Shown: positions 4,373-29,115 of the stretch, piece by piece | How the letters are laid out: every line of letters starts with the position of its first letter | How positions within the stretch are numbered: position 1 is the first letter of the stretch | DNA from: Pseudomonadota bacterium | GTDB taxonomy: Bacteria > Pseudomonadota > Alphaproteobacteria > Rhodobacterales > Rhodobacteraceae | NCBI GenBank assembly: GCA_029567145.1 | Contig: JAKQLM010000492.1 | Span: 1-35,069 of the forward strand | DNA: 35,069 nucleotides | Direction of reading: 5' to 3' | Notes under the pieces: model-generated | The model's input: the letters and a program-made list of their open reading frames with translations, nothing else | The model's database searches: none | What the model was told of the DNA's origin: nothing | Translations under genes and position numbers: made by a program

Positions 4373-4549
4373 ATGAAAAAGACCATCAAGCTCTTGCAGA
4401 AGATCGGCCTTGGCAAAAGCAAGCCGGCCGAGGATGAGGCCAGCCTGTTCGACAAGCGGCTGAAAAAGGTGAACCGGGCGCGGGTGGTCAATCAGGTGGG
4501 CCTTGGCGGCCCGGTGTTCAAAAGCCGACCGTCAGAGACGGAAGTTTGA
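4373..4549 (+). CDS. Small basic protein of unknown function
   Basis: A 58-residue ORF with an AAGGA ribosome site ~8 bases before the ATG at 4373. The product is lysine-rich (MKKTIKLLQKIGLGK; FDKRLKKVNRARVV) with no membrane segment or cysteine. I do not recognise a family. It is supported as a real gene by its ribosome site and by amino-acid composition unlike the shadow ORFs here. The track start at 4235 lies within the intergenic region and is rejected. Its last 32 bases overlap the end of mipZ on the other strand, so the two genes run tail to tail. Confidence 0.6.
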   Translation: MKKTIKLLQKIGLGKSKPAEDEASLFDKRLKKVNRARVVNQVGLGGPVFKSRPSETEV

Positions 4550-5309
4550 GGCCGCCCATCAGGTCGCGCAGCTCTTGCCGCGCGGCCACGTTCGACAGGT
4601 TCAACTGATCCACCCCGGTATCCTTGAGGTCCAGTAGCGTCAGCCCGCGCGGAAACAGCTCGCGGAAGATGACACGTTCGGAAAACCCCGGCAGCACGCG
4701 AAAGCCGATGCGGCGCGACAGGTCCTCCAGCGCGGCACCGACCTTTTTCTTGTTGTGCATCTGCTGCGCCCCAAGCCGGTTGCGGACCACGATCCAGTCG
4801 ATCGGCTTCAGCCCTTCCTGCGCCCGCACCTGGCGTGCGCCCCAGACCATTTCCGCATAGATCGACGGGCCCTTGACGCGGCCCGTCGCCGGATCGACGC
4901 GGGCCAAGAGGTCGAAATCGACAAAGCTGTCGTTCAGCGGCGTGATCAGAGTGTCGGCCATCGTATGCGCCAGTTGGCTTAGGCGGGTGTGACTGCCGGG
5001 ACAGTCGATGACGATGAAGTCCTTCGTCGCATCCATCGCCTCGACCGCGCGGGCCAGGCGGTCATCCTGCGCAGCGGCAGGATCGGTGTCCGGCAGGTCG
5101 TGGTAGTCGGGGGTCGGCAGGTCCAGCCCGGCCTGCGCCAGATAGGCCCGGCGGTTTTCCAGATAGCGCCCGAAGGACCGCTGCCGCAAGTCCAGGTCCA
5201 GCGCGCCCACCCGCTTGCCCATCCGCGCCAGCGCGGTGGCCACATGCATGCAGGTGGTCGATTTGCCCGACCCGCCCTTTTCGTTGCCCACAACGATGAT
5301 ATGCGCCAT
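4518..5309 (-). CDS. mipZ: MipZ, ParA-type division-plane positioning ATPase
   Basis: A 263-residue P-loop ATPase of the ParA/MinD superfamily. The deviant Walker A motif KGGSGKST (residues 11-18) follows the N-terminal strand, then DLDLRQRSFGRYLENR and the Walker B-like FIVIDCPG; the DSFVDFDLLARVDPATG region matches MipZ more than ParA. In Caulobacter, MipZ binds ParB near the poles and inhibits FtsZ, directing division to mid-cell; alphaproteobacteria generally use it instead of MinCD. The ORF track starts at 5504, but the ATG at 5309 directly precedes the family start (MAHIIVVGNEKGG) and has an AGGGGA site. The upstream part is the palindrome element. It stands alone, not beside parAB. Confidence 0.9.
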   Translation of the reverse strand: MAHIIVVGNEKGGSGKSTTCMHVATALARMGKRVGALDLDLRQRSFGRYLENRRAYLAQAGLDLPTPDYHDLPDTDPAAAQDDRLARAVEAMDATKDFIVIDCPGSHTRLSQLAHTMADTLITPLNDSFVDFDLLARVDPATGRVKGPSIYAEMVWGARQVRAQEGLKPIDWIVVRNRLGAQQMHNKKKVGAALEDLSRRIGFRVLPGFSERVIFRELFPRGLTLLDLKDTGVDQLNLSNVAARQELRDLMGGLKLPSLTVGF

Positions 5310-5394
5310 GGCCCATCCCCTGTCCCGTCCCGGCCCTGTCATATGCGCAAGGGGTGCGAGGGGAAAGCGGGAAGCTGTGGAGAACGCGGAGCAC

Positions 5395-5461
5395 CGATTT
5401 CTTTGAAGAAATCGGATCGGAGCCTTCAAAGGCTCCGGACCGGACTTTTCAAAAAGTCCGG
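5395..5461. repeat. Palindrome cluster 1 (three TTNNAA-centred palindromes)
   Basis: Three near-perfect palindromes follow one another: CGATTTCTT-TG-AAGAAATCG (5395-5414), CGGAGCCTT-CA-AAGGCTCCG (5418-5437) and CCGGACTTTT-CA-AAAAGTCCGG (5440-5461). Arms are 9-10 bases and every centre reads TTTGAA or TTCAAA. The first two arms recur in cluster 2 (23683) and the third in cluster 3 (28315). It lies between rpmE and mipZ, both on the minus strand. Confidence 0.9.
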
Positions 5462-5537: not shown

Positions 5538-5759
5538 TCAGAACCCCAGGCCGGCGTATTTGTTCTTGAACTTGGACACACGGCCGCCGGTGTCCATCAG
5601 CTTGGCCTGCTGGCCAGTCCAGGCCGGATGCGCCAGCGGGTCGATGTCCAGCGACATCTGGTCGCCTTCCTTGCCCCAGGTCGAGCGCGTCGTGTAGGTC
5701 GAGCCATCGGTCATCTTGATGGTGATCGTGTGATATCCGGGGTGAATCTCGGCTTTCAT
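5538..5759 (-). CDS. rpmE: 50S ribosomal protein L31
   Basis: A 73-residue L31 beginning [10 protein letters not shown], with the TRSTWGKEG and [10 protein letters not shown] segments typical of the alphaproteobacterial type. The zinc-binding CxxC motif is absent, so this is the cysteine-free (C-) form, which does not bind zinc. It starts 11 bases after the rplS stop, so the two are almost certainly cotranscribed, and a terminator follows. Confidence 0.96.
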
Positions 5760-21323: not shown

Positions 21324-21331
21324 AGTTTCTG

Positions 21332-21520
21332 TCCCGTCGCATGGCCGGTCTCCTGACTCGCGGGTCAAAGCCTGCTTTCCGCCTTCCCAGTCCCGGGGGA
21401 CCAGTGGCCGATGGAAAGCCGCTCGCCGCATACAGTCGCGGGGGCGGTTGGGGTTTTGACGCCGATCAACGGTCCGCCAGTCCCCATTCCCGTTTCAGTC
21501 CGAACGCTTTGCGCCCATTG
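21332..21520 (-). promoter_or_regulatory. Cobalamin riboswitch 1 (upstream of cbtBA-cobF)
   Basis: On the minus strand the segment has the known B12-element blocks in order: ACTGAAACGGGAATG, then CCGCCCCCGCGACTGTA, then CCACTG and ACTGGGAAGGCGG, and finally the B12 box GAGTCAGGAGACCGGCC (about 21343-21359). It fills most of the 310-base gap between the DUF1636 gene and cbtB. No intrinsic terminator follows, so control is probably translational, lowering cobalt uptake when B12 is plentiful. Ends are approximate. Confidence 0.93.
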
Positions 21521-21602
21521 GACGCCATGCCCCACCAGTTGCCACCAGGCAAGGCGGCGGGTCAAGGCGCATTTGCGGCTTTCCGGGGCGGTTTGCGACG
21601 CA

Positions 21603-22679: not shown

Positions 22680-22689
22680 CGGTTCATTT

Positions 22690-22880
22690 CGGTTCTGCAA
22701 GGCCGGTCTCCTGGCTGGCGGATCGTGGAGGGTCTTCGCCTTCCCATCCGGACGGACAGTGGCTGTTGAAGACCCGCTCACCGCTGACAGTCGCGGGGGC
22801 GGCTGAGGACGCGGGCCCCTGTTCAGGGTGGCCCGCTCCTCATTCCCGTTTCAGTCCCGACGCTTTGCGCCTGATGGGAC
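22690..22880 (-). promoter_or_regulatory. Cobalamin riboswitch 2 (upstream of the CbiM-like gene)
   Basis: The minus strand shows GCGCAAAGCGTCGGGACTGA, then ACGGGAATG, CCGCCCCCGCGACTGT, CCACTG, GATGGGAAGGCG and the B12 box CCAGCCAGGAGACCGGCC (about 22702-22719), the same order as in riboswitch 1. It occupies most of the 293-base gap between cobA and the CbiM-like gene. No terminator-like hairpin with a T-run follows, so translational control is likely. Ends are approximate. Confidence 0.93.
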
Positions 22881-22944
22881 ACCTTGCCCGCCGTGTGTGC
22901 GCCTGGACGAAACGGGGGTCAAGGACGAAGGCGACCTCGCCGCG

Positions 22945-23673
22945 TCAATCTGCGACGCCATCGGCCAGCGCGCCGAAAATGATCAGGCCGGGCAGGCTGG
23001 AGCGGTCTTCGGCCAGCACCTGCGCCAGCGCCGAAATGGTGGACCGGTGCAGGCGCTGGTCGGGGGTGCTGACCGCTTCGGCCAGAAGCGCGGGCGTGTC
23101 GGGGGCCAGCCCCCGGTCGATCAGCGCGGCGGCAAGGGTGGGGAAGGTGCGCTTGCCCATGTAGATGACGGTCGTGGCCTGCGGATCGGCCAGAGCCTCC
23201 AGGTTCAGGCCGGGCGGCAGGTCACCCGTGGTGTCGGCGGCGGTGATGAATTGCACCCGCTGGGCATGGATGCGCCGGGTCAGCGGGATGCCCGCTGCAG
23301 CGGCGGCAGCCGAAGCCGAGGTGACGCCGGGGATGATCGTGCAGCCGATCCCAGCGGCGCGGACGGCGGTCAGCTCTTCCTCCAACCGGCCGAAGATGCC
23401 GCTGTCACCAGACTTCAGCCGGACGACCTGCGCGCCGGTCAGGGCGTAGTCGACCAGAAGACGGCTGACGTGGTCCTGCTTGGGCGAGGGTCGGCCCGCC
23501 CGCTTGCCGACGCCCACCAGATCGGCCCCGGGCCGGGCAAGGGCCAGGATCGGACCCGAGGACAGGTCGTCGAACAGGATGGCATCGGCAGCGGCCAGCG
23601 CCTTCACCGCCTTGACGGTCAGAAGGTCAGGGTCGCCCGGCCCGGCCGAGACAAAGGTGACGAACCCGGTCAT
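22945..23673 (-). CDS. cobA: Uroporphyrinogen-III C-methyltransferase CobA
   Basis: A 242-residue SUMT enzyme that adds methyl groups at C2 and C7 of uroporphyrinogen III, giving precorrin-2, the branch point to B12 and siroheme. Motifs: VSAGPGDPDLLTVKA (SAM loop), LFDDLSS, VRLKSGDSGIFGR and PGVTSASAAAAAAGIPLT. It is the single-domain form, without the CysG dehydrogenase part. RLHRSTISALAQVLAE near the C-terminus is typical. The start at 23673 is chosen because the longer track start lies inside palindrome cluster 2. It follows cobB across that cluster. Confidence 0.95.
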   Translation of the reverse strand: MTGFVTFVSAGPGDPDLLTVKAVKALAAADAILFDDLSSGPILALARPGADLVGVGKRAGRPSPKQDHVSRLLVDYALTGAQVVRLKSGDSGIFGRLEEELTAVRAAGIGCTIIPGVTSASAAAAAAGIPLTRRIHAQRVQFITAADTTGDLPPGLNLEALADPQATTVIYMGKRTFPTLAAALIDRGLAPDTPALLAEAVSTPDQRLHRSTISALAQVLAEDRSSLPGLIIFGALADGVAD

Positions 23674-23682
23674 CGCGCGCCC

Positions 23683-23749
23683 CGATTTCTTCGAAGAAAT
23701 CGGACCGGAGCCTTTGAAGGCTCCGATCCGGAATTTTCGAAAATTCCGG
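23683..23749. repeat. Palindrome cluster 2 (three TTNNAA-centred palindromes)
   Basis: CGATTTCTT-CG-AAGAAATCG (23683-23702), CGGAGCCTT-TG-AAGGCTCCG (23706-23725) and CCGGAATTTT-CG-AAAATTCCGG (23728-23749). Units 1 and 2 have the same arms and order as cluster 1 at 5395; unit 3 differs from it by matched changes in both arms. The centres are TTCGAA or TTTGAA. It fills the spacer between cobB and cobA. Confidence 0.9.
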
Positions 23750-23773: not shown

Positions 23774-25105
23774 TCATGGGCCTGCAATCAGGTGAAAGAA
23801 CGTGCCGGTCGATAGCCCGCCGTCGGACTGAAGTCGATAGGAGCCGGTTTCGGGAACGGTCGCCCCGGTGGCATCGGTCACGGCGGCCAGCGGCGCATCT
23901 GGTTGCGCCAGAATGCTGGAATAGTGGAATTCGTGGCCCCGAAGCCGGGTCATTGCGGCGTGTCCAGGGATGGACTGTGCAAGTGTCGCCTGCCGGTAGC
24001 CCAGGTGCATCTTGCGGTCGGCATAGCTGGTCACCAGACCCAGAAGCCCGGCCATCGGATACCGGGTGCCGTCCTTGCCGATGATCGCCTGCCCCATGGC
24101 CATGTAGCCGCCACACTCGCCATGCACCGGCTTTTGTGCGGCAAAGGCGGCCAGGCCGCTGTGGAAATGACTGGCAGCGGCCAGAGTCGCGCCGTGCAGT
24201 TCGGGGTAGCCGCCGGGCATCCAGCAGACATCTGCGCTGGGGTCGGGGGCCTGATCGGCCAGGGGCGAGAACGGCAGCACTTCGGCCCCCGCCGCCCGCC
24301 ACCCCTGCAAGAGATGCGGGTAGACAAAGCTGAAGGCGGCATCGCGGGCCAAGGCGATGCGCTGGCCCGGAGGGGTGATCCGTGCGGCGGCAGCGGGTAG
24401 CGCACGGGTCGCAGCCGCCGCGATCAGCGCGTCAAGATCGACGCCTGTGCGCATCAGGTCCGCCGCCTCGGCGATCAGGGCCTGCAGGGCGGGCTGCTCT
24501 TCGGCCTGCACAAGGCCCAGGTGACGTTCGGGCATGGTGATGGCGGCGCGCTTGGGCAGGACGCCCAGAACGGGGAGACCGCCCTCCTGCATCCCGGCGC
24601 GCACCAGCGCCTCGTGCCGGGGGCTGGCGATGCGGTTCAGGATCACTCCGGCGACCTGCACGCCGGGACGGAACCGCGCCAGCCCCAGCGCCACCGCCGC
24701 CGCCGTCTGCGCCTGGCCGCTGGCGTCGATCACCAGGACCACCGGCCAGCCCATCCGCAGCGACAGATCGGCGCTGGCACCGTTGCCGCAGGCCCCGGGT
24801 GCCGCCACCCCATCGAACAGACCCATCGAGCCTTCGGCCAGGATCAGGTCCGCCCCGGTCGCCTTGGCCAGTATCCCGTCCAGCATCGCCCCGGGCATCG
24901 CCCAGGTGTCAAGGTTGAAGCTGTCGCGCCCCGAGGCCGCTCGATGAAAGGCCGGGTCGATGTAATCCGGCCCGTTCTTGAACGGCTGCACCACCAGCCC
25001 CCGCGCCCGCAGCCCGGCCAGCAACCCCAGCATGACCGTGGTCTTGCCGGTGCCCGACGCCGGGGCCGAGATGATCAGGCCCGGTGGCAGCGATCCGGGG
25101 GTCAT
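23774..25105 (-). CDS. cobB: Hydrogenobyrinate a,c-diamide synthase CobB
   Basis: A 443-residue ATP- and glutamine-dependent amidotransferase that amidates the a and c side chains. The N-terminal half is a dethiobiotin-synthetase-like ATPase ([17 protein letters not shown]-loop, ~13-29; [12 protein letters not shown]). The C-terminal half is a class I glutamine amidotransferase-like domain with [10 protein letters not shown] and the nucleophile cysteine in [11 protein letters not shown]. In the aerobic pathway it acts on hydrogenobyrinic acid before cobalt insertion by CobNST. Its ATG overlaps the cobM stop by four bases. RGHEFHYS near the end is the expected triad-histidine segment. Confidence 0.95.
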
Positions 25106-26398: not shown

Positions 26399-27579
26399 CG
26401 GGTGACGCTCCATTGCAGGATCGGCAGGCTGGCCTTCCAGCCGCGTTTCCGGCCGATGGCCAGGGGTTCCGCAAGGTCGATCTTCAGAAGGCTGCCGCCA
26501 TGGCGCGCGGACCAGTCCAGAACCAGCGCCTCGGTTTCCAACGTCACCGCGTTCATCACCAGGCGGGTGCCGGGCGGGATCAGGTCCCACAGCGCGTGCA
26601 ACAGGGCGTCCGACGCCCCACCGCCGATAAAGACGGCGTCGGGCGCGGGCAGGCCCTTTAATCCGGCAGGCGCGCGGGTTTCGGTCAGGCGGTGGCGGTG
26701 GCTCAGGCCGAAGGCGTCCACATTGCCCCGGGCGCGGCCGGCGCGGGTCGGGTCGGCTTCCAGCGCCTCGACCCTGGCCCCACCGGCCAGCAGCCATTCG
26801 ATCCCGACCGACCCCGAGCCTGCGCCGATGTCCCAAAGAAGTTCCCCGGGACGCGGCGCAAGCGCGGACAGCGTCAGCGCGCGGACCGGGCGTTTGGTGA
26901 TCTGGCCGTCGTGCTGGAAGAGGTCGTCCGGCAGGCCCGAGGCACCCGGCAGCCCGGGATCGGTGGCCAGGATCGCAGCAGAAACGGGGGCCGCCGAGAC
27001 CGGGGTCCAGTTAGGGTCGGAGGGCACGCCCTGCGTGATCCGCTCCTGCGGGCCGCCGAGGCGTTCCAGGATTGTCAGCCGGGCGTTCGGGTGGCCGTTT
27101 GCCGCCAGCCACGCCGCCAGTTCGGCAACCGCCGCCCCGTCGCGCAGGGTGCAGATCACGCGGACTCCCCGCCCCAGCACCGGACGCAGCCGGGCAAAGG
27201 GCGCGGCGTGCAGGCCAAGGGTCAGCACCTCCTCCAACCGCCAGCCCAGCCGGTTCGCGGCCAGTTGGAAAGTGGAGGGCGCGGGGTGCGAGGTCCATTC
27301 CCCGGGCTGGAGGTGGGCCATCAGGCTGCCACCCGCGCCGAACCAGAACGGGTCGCCCGAGGCGAGGACCACGGTGGGTTGGCCCCGGTGGGCAAGAACG
27401 GGGGTGGGATCGAAGGGCACTGGCCAAGGCTGGCCCTTTGCCCCGACATCTGCAAGGGCAAGGTGGCGCGGGCCACCGAAGACGACTTCGGCGCCGTCCA
27501 GCGCGTCACGGCTTGCGGGCGACAGGCCTGCCAGTCCATCTTCGCCCAGCCCGATCAGGGTCAGCCAGGGATTATCCAT
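26395..27579 (-). CDS. cobL: Precorrin-6Y C5,15-methyltransferase (decarboxylating) CobL
   Basis: A 394-residue fused enzyme. The N-terminal half (~1-205) is a CbiE-like tetrapyrrole methylase (WLTLIGLGEDGLAGL; VVLASGDPFWFGAGG). The C-terminal half (~210-394) is a CbiT-like methyltransferase with the SAM motif LLWDIGAGSGSVGIEWL and AVFIGGG. It methylates C5 and C15 and removes the acetate carboxyl, giving precorrin-8x. The start at 27579 matches the family opening; ATG codons at 27588 and further upstream would extend it. The start codon is shared in a CATG with the divergent cobK start. Confidence 0.95.
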   Translation of the reverse strand: MDNPWLTLIGLGEDGLAGLSPASRDALDGAEVVFGGPRHLALADVGAKGQPWPVPFDPTPVLAHRGQPTVVLASGDPFWFGAGGSLMAHLQPGEWTSHPAPSTFQLAANRLGWRLEEVLTLGLHAAPFARLRPVLGRGVRVICTLRDGAAVAELAAWLAANGHPNARLTILERLGGPQERITQGVPSDPNWTPVSAAPVSAAILATDPGLPGASGLPDDLFQHDGQITKRPVRALTLSALAPRPGELLWDIGAGSGSVGIEWLLAGGARVEALEADPTRAGRARGNVDAFGLSHRHRLTETRAPAGLKGLPAPDAVFIGGGASDALLHALWDLIPPGTRLVMNAVTLETEALVLDWSARHGGSLLKIDLAEPLAIGRKRGWKASLPILQWSVTR

Positions 27580-28306
27580 GACACGCATCCTGCTTCTGGG
27601 CGGCACGACCGAGGCGAACCTTGTGGCGCAGGCCATCGCGAAGGCGGGGCTTTCGGGCGTCTACTCCTACGCCGGGCGGACCGAGGCGCCGATGGGCCAG
27701 CCGATCCACATGCGGGTCGGCGGGTTTGGCGGGTTGGCGGGGCTTTGCGCCTACCTTCAGGCCGAGGGGATCACCCATGTGATCGACGCCACGCACCCCT
27801 TTGCCGCGCAGATGAGCAGCAATGCCGTCGCTGCTTGCGCGGCCACCGGCACGCCGCTGATCGCGCTGGAACGTGCGCCCTGGATGCCAGGGGAGGGTGA
27901 CCGCTGGACACATGTGGCAGACATTCAGGCCGCCGTCGCAGCGCTGGCAGGACCCCCGCAGCGGGTGTTCCTGGCCATCGGCCGTCAGCACATCGACGCC
28001 TTCGCGGCGCAACCGCAGCACCGCTATCTTCTGCGGCTGGTGGACGAGCCCACGGGCCCCCTGCCCTTTCCCGCCGAGGTTGTCTTGGCGCGCGGGCCGT
28101 TCGACGTGGCGGGCGATACGGCGCTGATGCGGGACCACGGGACGGACGTGATCGTTGCCAAGAACGCGGGCGGCAAGGGGGCGGTCGCGAAAATCGCCGC
28201 CGCTCGGGCCTTGGGGCTGCCGGTGGTGATGATCGACCGGCCGGTGATTCCGCCGCGCCCTGTGGTGCAGGGGGTCGCCGCCGTGATGGCCTGGCTGAAC
28301 GGTTAG
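27578..28306 (+). CDS. cobK: Precorrin-6A reductase CobK
   Basis: A 242-residue NADPH-dependent reductase that reduces the C18-C19 double bond of precorrin-6A. ILLLGGTTEANLVAQAIA is the nucleotide-binding loop, YAGRTEAP and HVIDATHPFAAQMSSNA are CobK signatures, and DVIVAKNAGGKGAVAKI binds the second half of the site. It is the only plus-strand gene in the cob region. The ATG (27578-27580) lies inside CATG with the cobL start, so each gene's upstream control sequence is inside the other. The track ORF from 26402 is shadow sequence before this point. It converges on cobJ across palindrome cluster 3. Confidence 0.95.
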   Translation: MTRILLLGGTTEANLVAQAIAKAGLSGVYSYAGRTEAPMGQPIHMRVGGFGGLAGLCAYLQAEGITHVIDATHPFAAQMSSNAVAACAATGTPLIALERAPWMPGEGDRWTHVADIQAAVAALAGPPQRVFLAIGRQHIDAFAAQPQHRYLLRLVDEPTGPLPFPAEVVLARGPFDVAGDTALMRDHGTDVIVAKNAGGKGAVAKIAAARALGLPVVMIDRPVIPPRPVVQGVAAVMAWLNG

Positions 28307-28314
28307 GCCGGGAC

Positions 28315-28357
28315 CCGGACTTTTCAAAAAGTCCGGTAAAATCCTTTGAAGGATTTT
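28315..28357. repeat. Palindrome cluster 3 (two TTNNAA-centred palindromes)
   Basis: CCGGACTTTT-CA-AAAAGTCCGG (28315-28336), identical to unit 3 of cluster 1, and AAAATCCTT-TG-AAGGATTTT (28338-28357), a new arm. It lies between the converging cobK and cobJ genes. The second palindrome ends in TTTT on both strands, so it could act as a bidirectional terminator. Confidence 0.9.
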
Positions 28358-28365
28358 GGCCCGGT

Positions 28366-29115
28366 TCATCCCGCGCTCCTGGGGGAATAGACAAAGCGCC
28401 CGACACGGCGGGTGGCAGAGTTGCCGACGATGACAACGGTGCGCATGTCGGCCATCTCGGGCGTGGCTTCGGCAAGGGTGACGGTGATCAAGCGCTGGTC
28501 GGGCGTGCTGACCGCGCGGGCGAAGGTGACCAGACGGTCGGGGCCGCATTCCTGACGCAGGGTTTGCAGCGCTTTCACGAACCCCTCGGGGCGGCTGGCC
28601 GACCGGGGATTGTAGAAGGCCATTGCAAAATCGGCGCGGGCGGCGTGGCGGAGGCGGGTGTCGATCACCTCCCAGGGTTTCAGGTTGTCGGAAAGGTTGA
28701 TGCAGCAGAAATCATGGCCCAAGGGCGCGCCTGCTGCGGCGGCAGCGGCAAGCATCGCGGTGATGCCGGGCAACACGCGGATATCCAGGGCCTGCCAGTC
28801 GGGGCGGCCCTCCAATGCCTCGAACACGGCGGAGGCCATCGCAAAGACGCCAGGGTCGCCCGAAGAGACGACGACAACCTTGTGCCCAGCGGCGGCCATC
28901 TCCAGCGCGGCGCGGGCGCGGTCAAGCTCGACGCGGTTGTCGGAGGGGTGCAGGGTCAGGCCGTCGCGCGGGGCGACGCGGGCGACATAGGGGATGTAGC
29001 CCACGATATCGGTCGCCTGCGAGAGTGCCTCGGTGACTTCCGGCGTTACCATCCGGTCATCCCCCGGACCAAGGCCCGCGATGATCAGCCAGCCCGGTTT
29101 TTCCTTGGCGCTCAT
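28366..29115 (-). CDS. cobJ: Precorrin-3B C17-methyltransferase CobJ
   Basis: A 249-residue methylase and ring-contraction enzyme that produces precorrin-4. LIIAGLGPGDDRMVTPEVTEAL is the SAM loop; DIVGYIPYV, VSSGDPGVFAMASAVFE and the AFYNPRS segment are typical of CobJ/CbiH. It is the single-domain form without the CbiG fusion seen in some relatives. The start overlaps the cobI stop by four bases. It is the last minus-strand gene before cobK. Confidence 0.95.
   Translation of the reverse strand: MSAKEKPGWLIIAGLGPGDDRMVTPEVTEALSQATDIVGYIPYVARVAPRDGLTLHPSDNRVELDRARAALEMAAAGHKVVVVSSGDPGVFAMASAVFEALEGRPDWQALDIRVLPGITAMLAAAAAAGAPLGHDFCCINLSDNLKPWEVIDTRLRHAARADFAMAFYNPRSASRPEGFVKALQTLRQECGPDRLVTFARAVSTPDQRLITVTLAEATPEMADMRTVVIVGNSATRRVGRFVYSPRSAG

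Follow-up and report, generated by a model that had tools for sequence, protein, structure and literature searches.

Ordered triplets of TTNNAA-centred palindromes recur at gene 3′ ends in Tabrizicola- and Rhodobacter-type genomes

The window analysed here, a stretch of 35,069 nucleotides, belongs to a Rhodobacteraceae draft genome (4.0 Mb in 818 contigs, with an estimated contamination of about 8%). It contains eight palindromes that have a TTNNAA centre and arms of at least six bases, and all eight lie within three clusters, each of which is present in the sequence as a preliminary description of this DNA had listed it. The palindromes (modules) and the neighbouring genes are arranged as follows.

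4518–5309, minus strand: mipZ, encoding the ATPase MipZ (Pfam PF09140); codirectional neighbour downstream of cluster 1
5394–5415, plus strand: cluster 1, module A, CCGATTTCTT-TG-AAGAAATCGG
5418–5437, plus strand: cluster 1, module B, CGGAGCCTT-CA-AAGGCTCCG; centre exactly 23 bp from that of A
5440–5461, plus strand: cluster 1, module C, CCGGACTTTT-CA-AAAAGTCCGG; centre exactly 23 bp from that of B
5538–5759, minus strand: rpmE, encoding ribosomal protein L31 (Pfam PF01197); codirectional neighbour upstream of cluster 1
22945–23673, minus strand: cobA-like tetrapyrrole methylase gene (Pfam PF00590); start codon 8 bp from cluster 2
23682–23703, plus strand: cluster 2, module A, a perfect 22-bp palindrome with the centre TTCGAA
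23706–23725, plus strand: cluster 2, module B
23728–23749, plus strand: cluster 2, module C, the GGAATTTT variant, its change matched on both arms; orthologous filled and empty alleles exist
23774–25105, minus strand: cobB-like gene with CbiA and GATase_3 domains; neighbour upstream of cluster 2
27578–28306, plus strand: cobK/cbiJ, precorrin-6x reductase (Pfam PF02571); convergent neighbour of cluster 3
28315–28336, plus strand: cluster 3, module C, same sequence as C of cluster 1
28338–28357, plus strand: cluster 3, module of a second family, AAAATCCTT-TG-AAGGATTTT; pitch 22 bp, not 23
28366–29115, minus strand: tetrapyrrole methylase gene (Pfam PF00590); convergent neighbour of cluster 3

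A single ordered unit, A(CGATTTCTT)-B(CGGAGCCTT)-C(CGGANTTTT), makes up both cluster 1 and cluster 2. The palindromes of cluster 1 read CCGATTTCTTTGAAGAAATCGG (5394–5415), CGGAGCCTTCAAAGGCTCCG (5418–5437) and CCGGACTTTTCAAAAAGTCCGG (5440–5461); the cluster starts at 5394, one base ahead of the 5395 given for it previously, because the outermost two bases of the first palindrome match as well. Cluster 2 (23682–23749) repeats the order A-B-C, and its C arm differs from that of cluster 1 by a change from GGACTTTT to GGAATTTT made in match on both sides, so that both the shared order and the symmetric third-arm differences that had been pointed out are borne out. Cluster 3 (28315–28357), which had been described as reusing the same arms in a different combination, contains the cluster-1 C module; its other module is different and belongs to a second palindrome family with a 22-bp pitch and arms such as CAAAATCCTT, a module type also found at four further loci (L017, L046, L059 and L095). 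This cluster occupies the whole gap between two convergent stop codons, leaving 8 bp on each side. A separate hairpin lies between the rpmE stop codon and cluster 1. At gathering score, the only Rfam matches in the window were two cobalamin riboswitches and the ffh sRNA, with none at the clusters; the riboswitches are on the minus strand (21326–21544 and 22684–22901), close to the genes for cobalamin biosynthesis that border clusters 2 and 3. Across the window, GANTC (the CcrM site) is strongly depleted, with 22 sites found versus 134 expected from shuffles.

The full unit is 66 bp long and consists of three different perfect palindromes in the fixed order A-B-C, each with arms of 9 to 10 bases around TT-NN-AA, and the GC-rich module B is always the middle one. 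Arm letters are near-invariant; spacer and centre letters vary. In a census of all fetched loci, from which sequence duplicates were removed and in which orthologues were kept, 341 pairs of neighbouring modules were counted. The distance between centres was exactly 23 bp in 337 of them and 46 bp in the other 4, where the middle module has probably diverged too far to be recognized; no other module distance occurred within 80 bp. The pairs were AB, BC and their reversals (rarely AC), and the same module was never paired with itself. On 20 contigs of the source genome and at 80 named loci elsewhere, A-B-C was the sole order, on either strand and sometimes with a worn C or A.

The clusters in the window are three of many. 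Exact B matches the source genome 30 times and the reversed-pattern control 0 times, and 43 A modules are present, again with 0 matches for the reversed pattern. When the central six bases were left free, all 30 matches to B had a TTNNAA centre (TTCAAA or TTTGAA), as did 43 of the 44 matches to A. Chance inverted repeats are ruled out by the reversed controls at 0, the TTNNAA centres recovered with the core left free and the exact pitch.

Neighbouring genomes carry the unit as well. Tabrizicola/Rhodobacter-type relatives within the genus hold between 0 and 32 intact A-B junctions per genome. The proposed search of this genome and its relatives for tandem TTNNAA palindromes returned dozens of copies of fixed order and pitch. 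Among cultured relatives, Rhodobacter calidifons is rich in copies and Tabrizicola sp. SY72 has fewer. Exact B was present in 4 of 199 genomes sampled from the family. Among contigs of GTDB species it occurred almost only in records of the Tabrizicola, Rhodobacter, Pseudogemmobacter, Xinfangfangia, Pseudorhodobacter and Fuscovulum type, and the few exact matches outside these genera are probably due to chance. A looser pattern, in which nothing was fixed except three TTNNAA centres at a 23-bp pitch, revealed an equal architecture with quite different arms in further Rhodobacteraceae genera (genomes G244, G187 and G267). Most of its remaining matches look like chance; where a genome had several, the reversed control often matched equally often. 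No plasmid matched. The lone IMG/VR contig with the B pattern, the one candidate for phage carriage, was rejected, as its match is part of a larger palindrome in a coding sequence and is probably fortuitous. As a separate observation, C modules at different loci (L041, L043 and L255 of Rhodobacter calidifons G192, and also L116) share innermost pairs in which TT..AA has been replaced symmetrically by CG..CG, which gives the impression of a variant that spread within a lineage.

Next to genes, which were called around the arrays with a purpose-written codon-usage gene caller, the arrays are distributed far from randomly. Gaps with arrays were convergent in 53 cases, codirectional in 44 and divergent in 3, versus 36, 129 and 55, respectively, among control gaps of at least 20 bp in unselected stretches of one relative (chi-square p ~1e-23). 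In convergent gaps, the array lies a median of 7 bp from the nearer stop codon; of the 44 arrays in codirectional gaps, 33 are closer to the stop codon upstream and 11 to the start codon downstream. The orientation of A-B-C showed no obvious preference with respect to the flanking genes. The location at gene boundaries that had been noted for the three clusters can thus be narrowed to the 3′ ends of genes for most arrays.

Comparison of orthologous sites among congeners revealed filled, eroded and empty alleles. At the cobA site (cluster 2), the element is present in nine congeners, eroded in two of them, and the site is empty in most others, where cobA abuts or overlaps the preceding cobB-like gene (ATGA). 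Intact filled alleles at this site have about 97–115 bp between two copies of GGTCA; this short duplication occurs at the cobA site only, with no clean duplication at other sites. As the A and C modules differ, the element is without the terminal inverted repeat that, along with a target-site duplication, is a feature of MITEs. The mipZ–rpmE site (cluster 1) likewise has filled, eroded and empty alleles, and orthologous copies retain their position and orientation.

A third site lies inside a gene. In nine congeners (eroded in two), a complete A-B-C forms 22 in-frame codons of cutC, and it is absent in about eighteen others. The source genome itself has such a cutC (L020:6935–7753, contig C58; further loci with the element in cutC are L099, L168 and L300–L308), and the statement that the palindromes are not coding therefore holds in the window and fails elsewhere in the same genome. 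Pfam CutC matches the interrupted genes in two stretches. Empty and filled alleles differ by about 25–28 codons, which extends beyond the 66-bp core, and the filled ones are dispersed over the CutC tree, with at least two changes forced by strongly supported branches and seven on the best tree. In genome G332 (L310), the insertion place holds four additional codons, which could be the footprint of a lost copy.

The cutC copies also show which parts of the element endure. Among the seven intact ones, the arms differ by 3.4%, compared with 40% for the centres, 52% for the spacers and 39% for third codon positions in the remainder of the gene. Arm differences are independent of codon position, AT-rich third positions are retained inside a GC-rich gene, and matched arm changes alter the encoded amino acid (GAA TTT .. 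ATT to GAG TTT .. ACT). The combination of consensus arms and random centres could also result from independent insertions at one hot spot. A C variant, GGAATCTT, that is common to G289 and G306, and the eroded copy of G293, argue that at least some cutC copies are old.

Retention of the consensus at the three sites tracks the intact copy number of the genome (Spearman 0.74 over 28 alleles, which are not phylogenetically independent and include a few weak mipZ alignments, from G288, G306 and G308). In the low-copy genomes G301 and G291, alleles were decayed at both sites examined. This pattern fits a trans-acting factor that reads or maintains the element and has been lost in some lineages.

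Pairing within the modules is likewise conserved. In a set of 88 distinct B-anchored arrays, changes on both sides were seen at 13 pairs, compared with a shuffled mean of 3.7, and 121 doubly changed cells were counted versus 35.1 in shuffles; 0 of 500 shuffles reached either value. The most striking example is pair 5 of module C, which was AT in 42 arrays, GC in 38, CG in 6 and TA in 2, and in none unpaired. The arrays were oriented by A and C modules recognized as palindromes, which inflates the absolute percentages of pairing and may somewhat enrich double changes; at C pair 5 and the outer pairs, the signal is too strong for this step to account for it. RNA folding of 68-nt arrays gave −36 to −39 kcal/mol (z −5.6 to −7.6), with three hairpins with four-base loops as the predicted structure. 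Extending the B stem through the spacers yielded 72.9% pairing versus 77.3% in shuffles, 500 of 500 of which were as high. As this extended pairing is rarer than in shuffles, it is three separate hairpins that are kept, not one long terminator stem, and what is conserved is pairing within each of the three. The alternatives offered earlier, that the symmetry is selected or that the unit is copied as a whole, agree with this covariation, with the constant position and orientation of orthologues and with cutC arms that outlast flanks, centres and spacers. In transcribed stems, G-U pairs were not favoured over A-C mismatches (2 versus 5, few events), so the data are silent on whether RNA or single-stranded DNA is the pairing form. 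Covariation of the innermost pairs was dropped as proof against RNA, since the predicted fold has loops of 4 nt in any case and a pair can close a tetraloop in RNA.

The best reading, and one that we consider probably correct, is that the arrays are non-autonomous interspersed composite palindromic (REP/BIME-like) elements that form hairpins and are kept by a putative trans-acting factor. The 66-bp A-B-C unit would enter new places, mostly right after stop codons and rarely in frame inside a gene; it would then be inherited by descent and be lost or eroded in other lineages. Whereas the filled, eroded and empty alleles are directly observed, we infer the route of entry and the mobility of the element. 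When single-stranded, A-B-C would fold into three separate hairpins with UNNA loops. Quite apart from pairing, the arm letters are kept in high-copy genomes and decay in low-copy ones, so something in trans would read or copy the arms and keep them intact; this putative reader or copier would not be a RAYT.

At 3′ ends, a hairpin triplet that is alike on both strands would probably act as a bidirectional block, by protecting mRNA 3′ ends, aiding termination or both. Such a 3′-end role (mRNA protection or termination) is plausible for the arrays, and it is inapplicable to the cutC copy. The block may explain the tolerance of this location and not the existence of the element. More tentatively, and with doubt prevailing, the arrays could belong to a recognition system that spans the Rhodobacteraceae: a putative trans-acting factor would read tandem TTNNAA palindromes at a 22–23-bp pitch, would have co-evolved with lineage-specific arm sets, and would spread or preserve the arrays, which would decay genome-wide once the factor is lost.

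Alternatively, the arrays could be read in the duplex, as dyad DNA-binding sites for a dimeric or oligomeric protein that acts at 3′ ends in the manner of a nucleoid protein or gyrase; the relative face of the three sites would be set by the 23-bp pitch. In favour of such sites are the exact pitch, which is free of indels despite variable spacer bases, the invariant arms and TTNNAA core, and a symmetry that extends to the pairs adjoining the centre. Arms differ between genera as sets with the architecture unchanged, and erosion follows the state of the genome, as if a protein had been lost. However, positions at which the base is free (C pair 5, and outer pairs that are CG or GC) remain matched. 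A protein indifferent to the base needs no matched arms, which means that pairing of the strands, or copying templated by a hairpin, must play a part as well. We regard this reading as rather unlikely.

Still less probable are bidirectional intrinsic terminators, in which the GC-rich B hairpin is extended by the inner ends of A and C and followed, in each direction, by the T-rich arm of C or A. Their 3′-end location, their reverse-complement symmetry and the constant placement of B in the middle would suit such a design, and in cluster 2, the sole match in a scan, ATTTCTT comes after an extended B stem when the minus strand is read. Yet the B extension pairs less than in shuffles, and the sequence that flanks A and C on the outside is rich in GC and lacks a U-tract. 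Other genera keep the architecture with GC-rich arms and no T-runs, cutC preserves a perfect copy midway through the gene, and rpmE has its own hairpin ahead of cluster 1. The missing U-tract and an extended-B fold below chance led us to reject simple intrinsic terminators as a general explanation; together with the copy kept inside a gene, they weaken the earlier suggestion of terminator signals. None of the outcomes that were to refute the preliminary description came about, be it a total of three copies, their absence from neighbouring genomes or plain intrinsic termination.

The reading as REP/BIME elements proper, mobilized by a RAYT transposase, is largely refuted and very improbable: GTAG/CGTC REPs have been described with a like location next to stop codons, with intragenic copies and with matched arm changes (PMC3733652; PMC2817692), but no Y1_Tnp/RAYT protein exceeded the cut-off in any of 31 congeners (two weak hits fell below it; controls in E. 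coli and Caulobacter were positive, 5/14), array edges had no GTAG or CGTC tag (flank positions ≤0.56 bits, no fixed tetranucleotide), and three different palindromes in one order replace the inverted pair of one REP. A dedicated mobilizer gene adjoining the copies was also rejected, as no mobilizer-like family recurred beside them and the recurrent neighbours were ordinary genes.

Short palindromic repeats are common in bacterial genomes, and to our knowledge a candidate mover is known for none but the RAYT-linked kind. Of the three options in the preliminary description, ‘REP-like’ comes closest and is partly supported: many copies, the 3′-end site, matched changes, presence or absence at orthologous sites and an intragenic copy speak for it, and the lack of a tag, a RAYT and inverted pairs speaks against it. 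The arrays are filed as a REP-like kind, not as a member of the RAYT–REP family. They share with REPs and BIMEs (PMC2817692, PMC3733652, PMC12306157) short palindromes in many, mostly extragenic copies, regularly spaced composites, convergent or codirectional gaps near stop codons, matched arm changes and occasional intragenic copies. They differ in being built from three distinct perfect palindromes whose order is obligatory and whose pitch is exactly 23 bp, in the absence of a GTAG/CGTC tag and of a RAYT over the cut-off in the genus, and in arms conserved across species whose third codon positions are about 39% different. Unlike REPINs and BIMEs, they include no inverted or alternating pairs of the same module among the 341 neighbour pairs. 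Further traits of REPs and BIMEs are binding of gyrase, IHF or Pol I, or Rho-dependent termination.

Rickettsia RPEs, which are 105–150 bp long, form one long stem-loop and lie in large share within genes (PMC10969869, PMC2229807), resemble the present element as palindromic repeats found both between genes and in frame in a conserved protein gene (here the 22 codons in cutC). By contrast, the present element is 66 bp long, has three hairpins and was seen at one intragenic site, cutC. The Caulobacter CcrM-associated intergenic repeats (CIRs; about 110 bp, carrying GANTC; PMC2229807) are likewise alphaproteobacterial intergenic repeats with independent stem-loops. Identity with these CcrM-linked repeats was rejected, as no cluster in the window contains GANTC and all GANTC sites of the window lie outside the clusters. 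Intrinsic terminators also place hairpins at gene ends, but lack the tandem hairpins of invariant sequence and the copy inside a gene seen here, and the arrays have no adjoining U-tract. Thus, the fixed triple order with exact pitch, the absence of a tag and of a RAYT, and the lineage-specific arm sets set the arrays apart from described repeats. In the open-access literature, we found no paper that describes ordered arrays of this kind; subscription journals lay mostly outside the search.

The architecture of the arrays is stricter than that of described repeats, and sister genera have related versions that use other arms. Because close relatives differ at a given site in having an intact, an eroded or an empty allele, gain, upkeep and loss are traceable locus by locus, and comparing high-copy with zero-copy genomes offers a route to the putative trans-acting partner.

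Several minor observations concern orientation and related palindromes. On contig C1 of genome G292 (4.19 Mb; for example, L280–L299), A-B-C copies are all on the plus strand at 1.53–2.67 Mb, all on the minus strand at 2.96–3.77 Mb and mixed elsewhere. The best two arcs account for 23 of 26 copies (p 0.005; p 0.023 with exact matches only) in G292, the one genome that is nearly complete. The blocks were noticed post hoc, GC skew gave no clean origin or terminus there, and the other genomes offered no clear support, so orientation by replichore is kept as a lead. A third palindrome type occurs in genome G122 (L049:3303, L050:6360 and L057:16222) as a single 26-bp GAAAATTCTTCG-NN-CGAAGAATTTTC, and also as GAAGAATTTTCG-GA-CGAAAATTCTTC. 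Genome G187 has three longer palindromes at an exact 30-bp pitch (L207:8097), with other arms and centres of the CCAGAAAA/TTTTCTGG type. At L081:4519–4620, three GGTGCGTG..CACGCACC palindromes spaced 39–43 bp apart lie immediately ahead of an A-B-C array.
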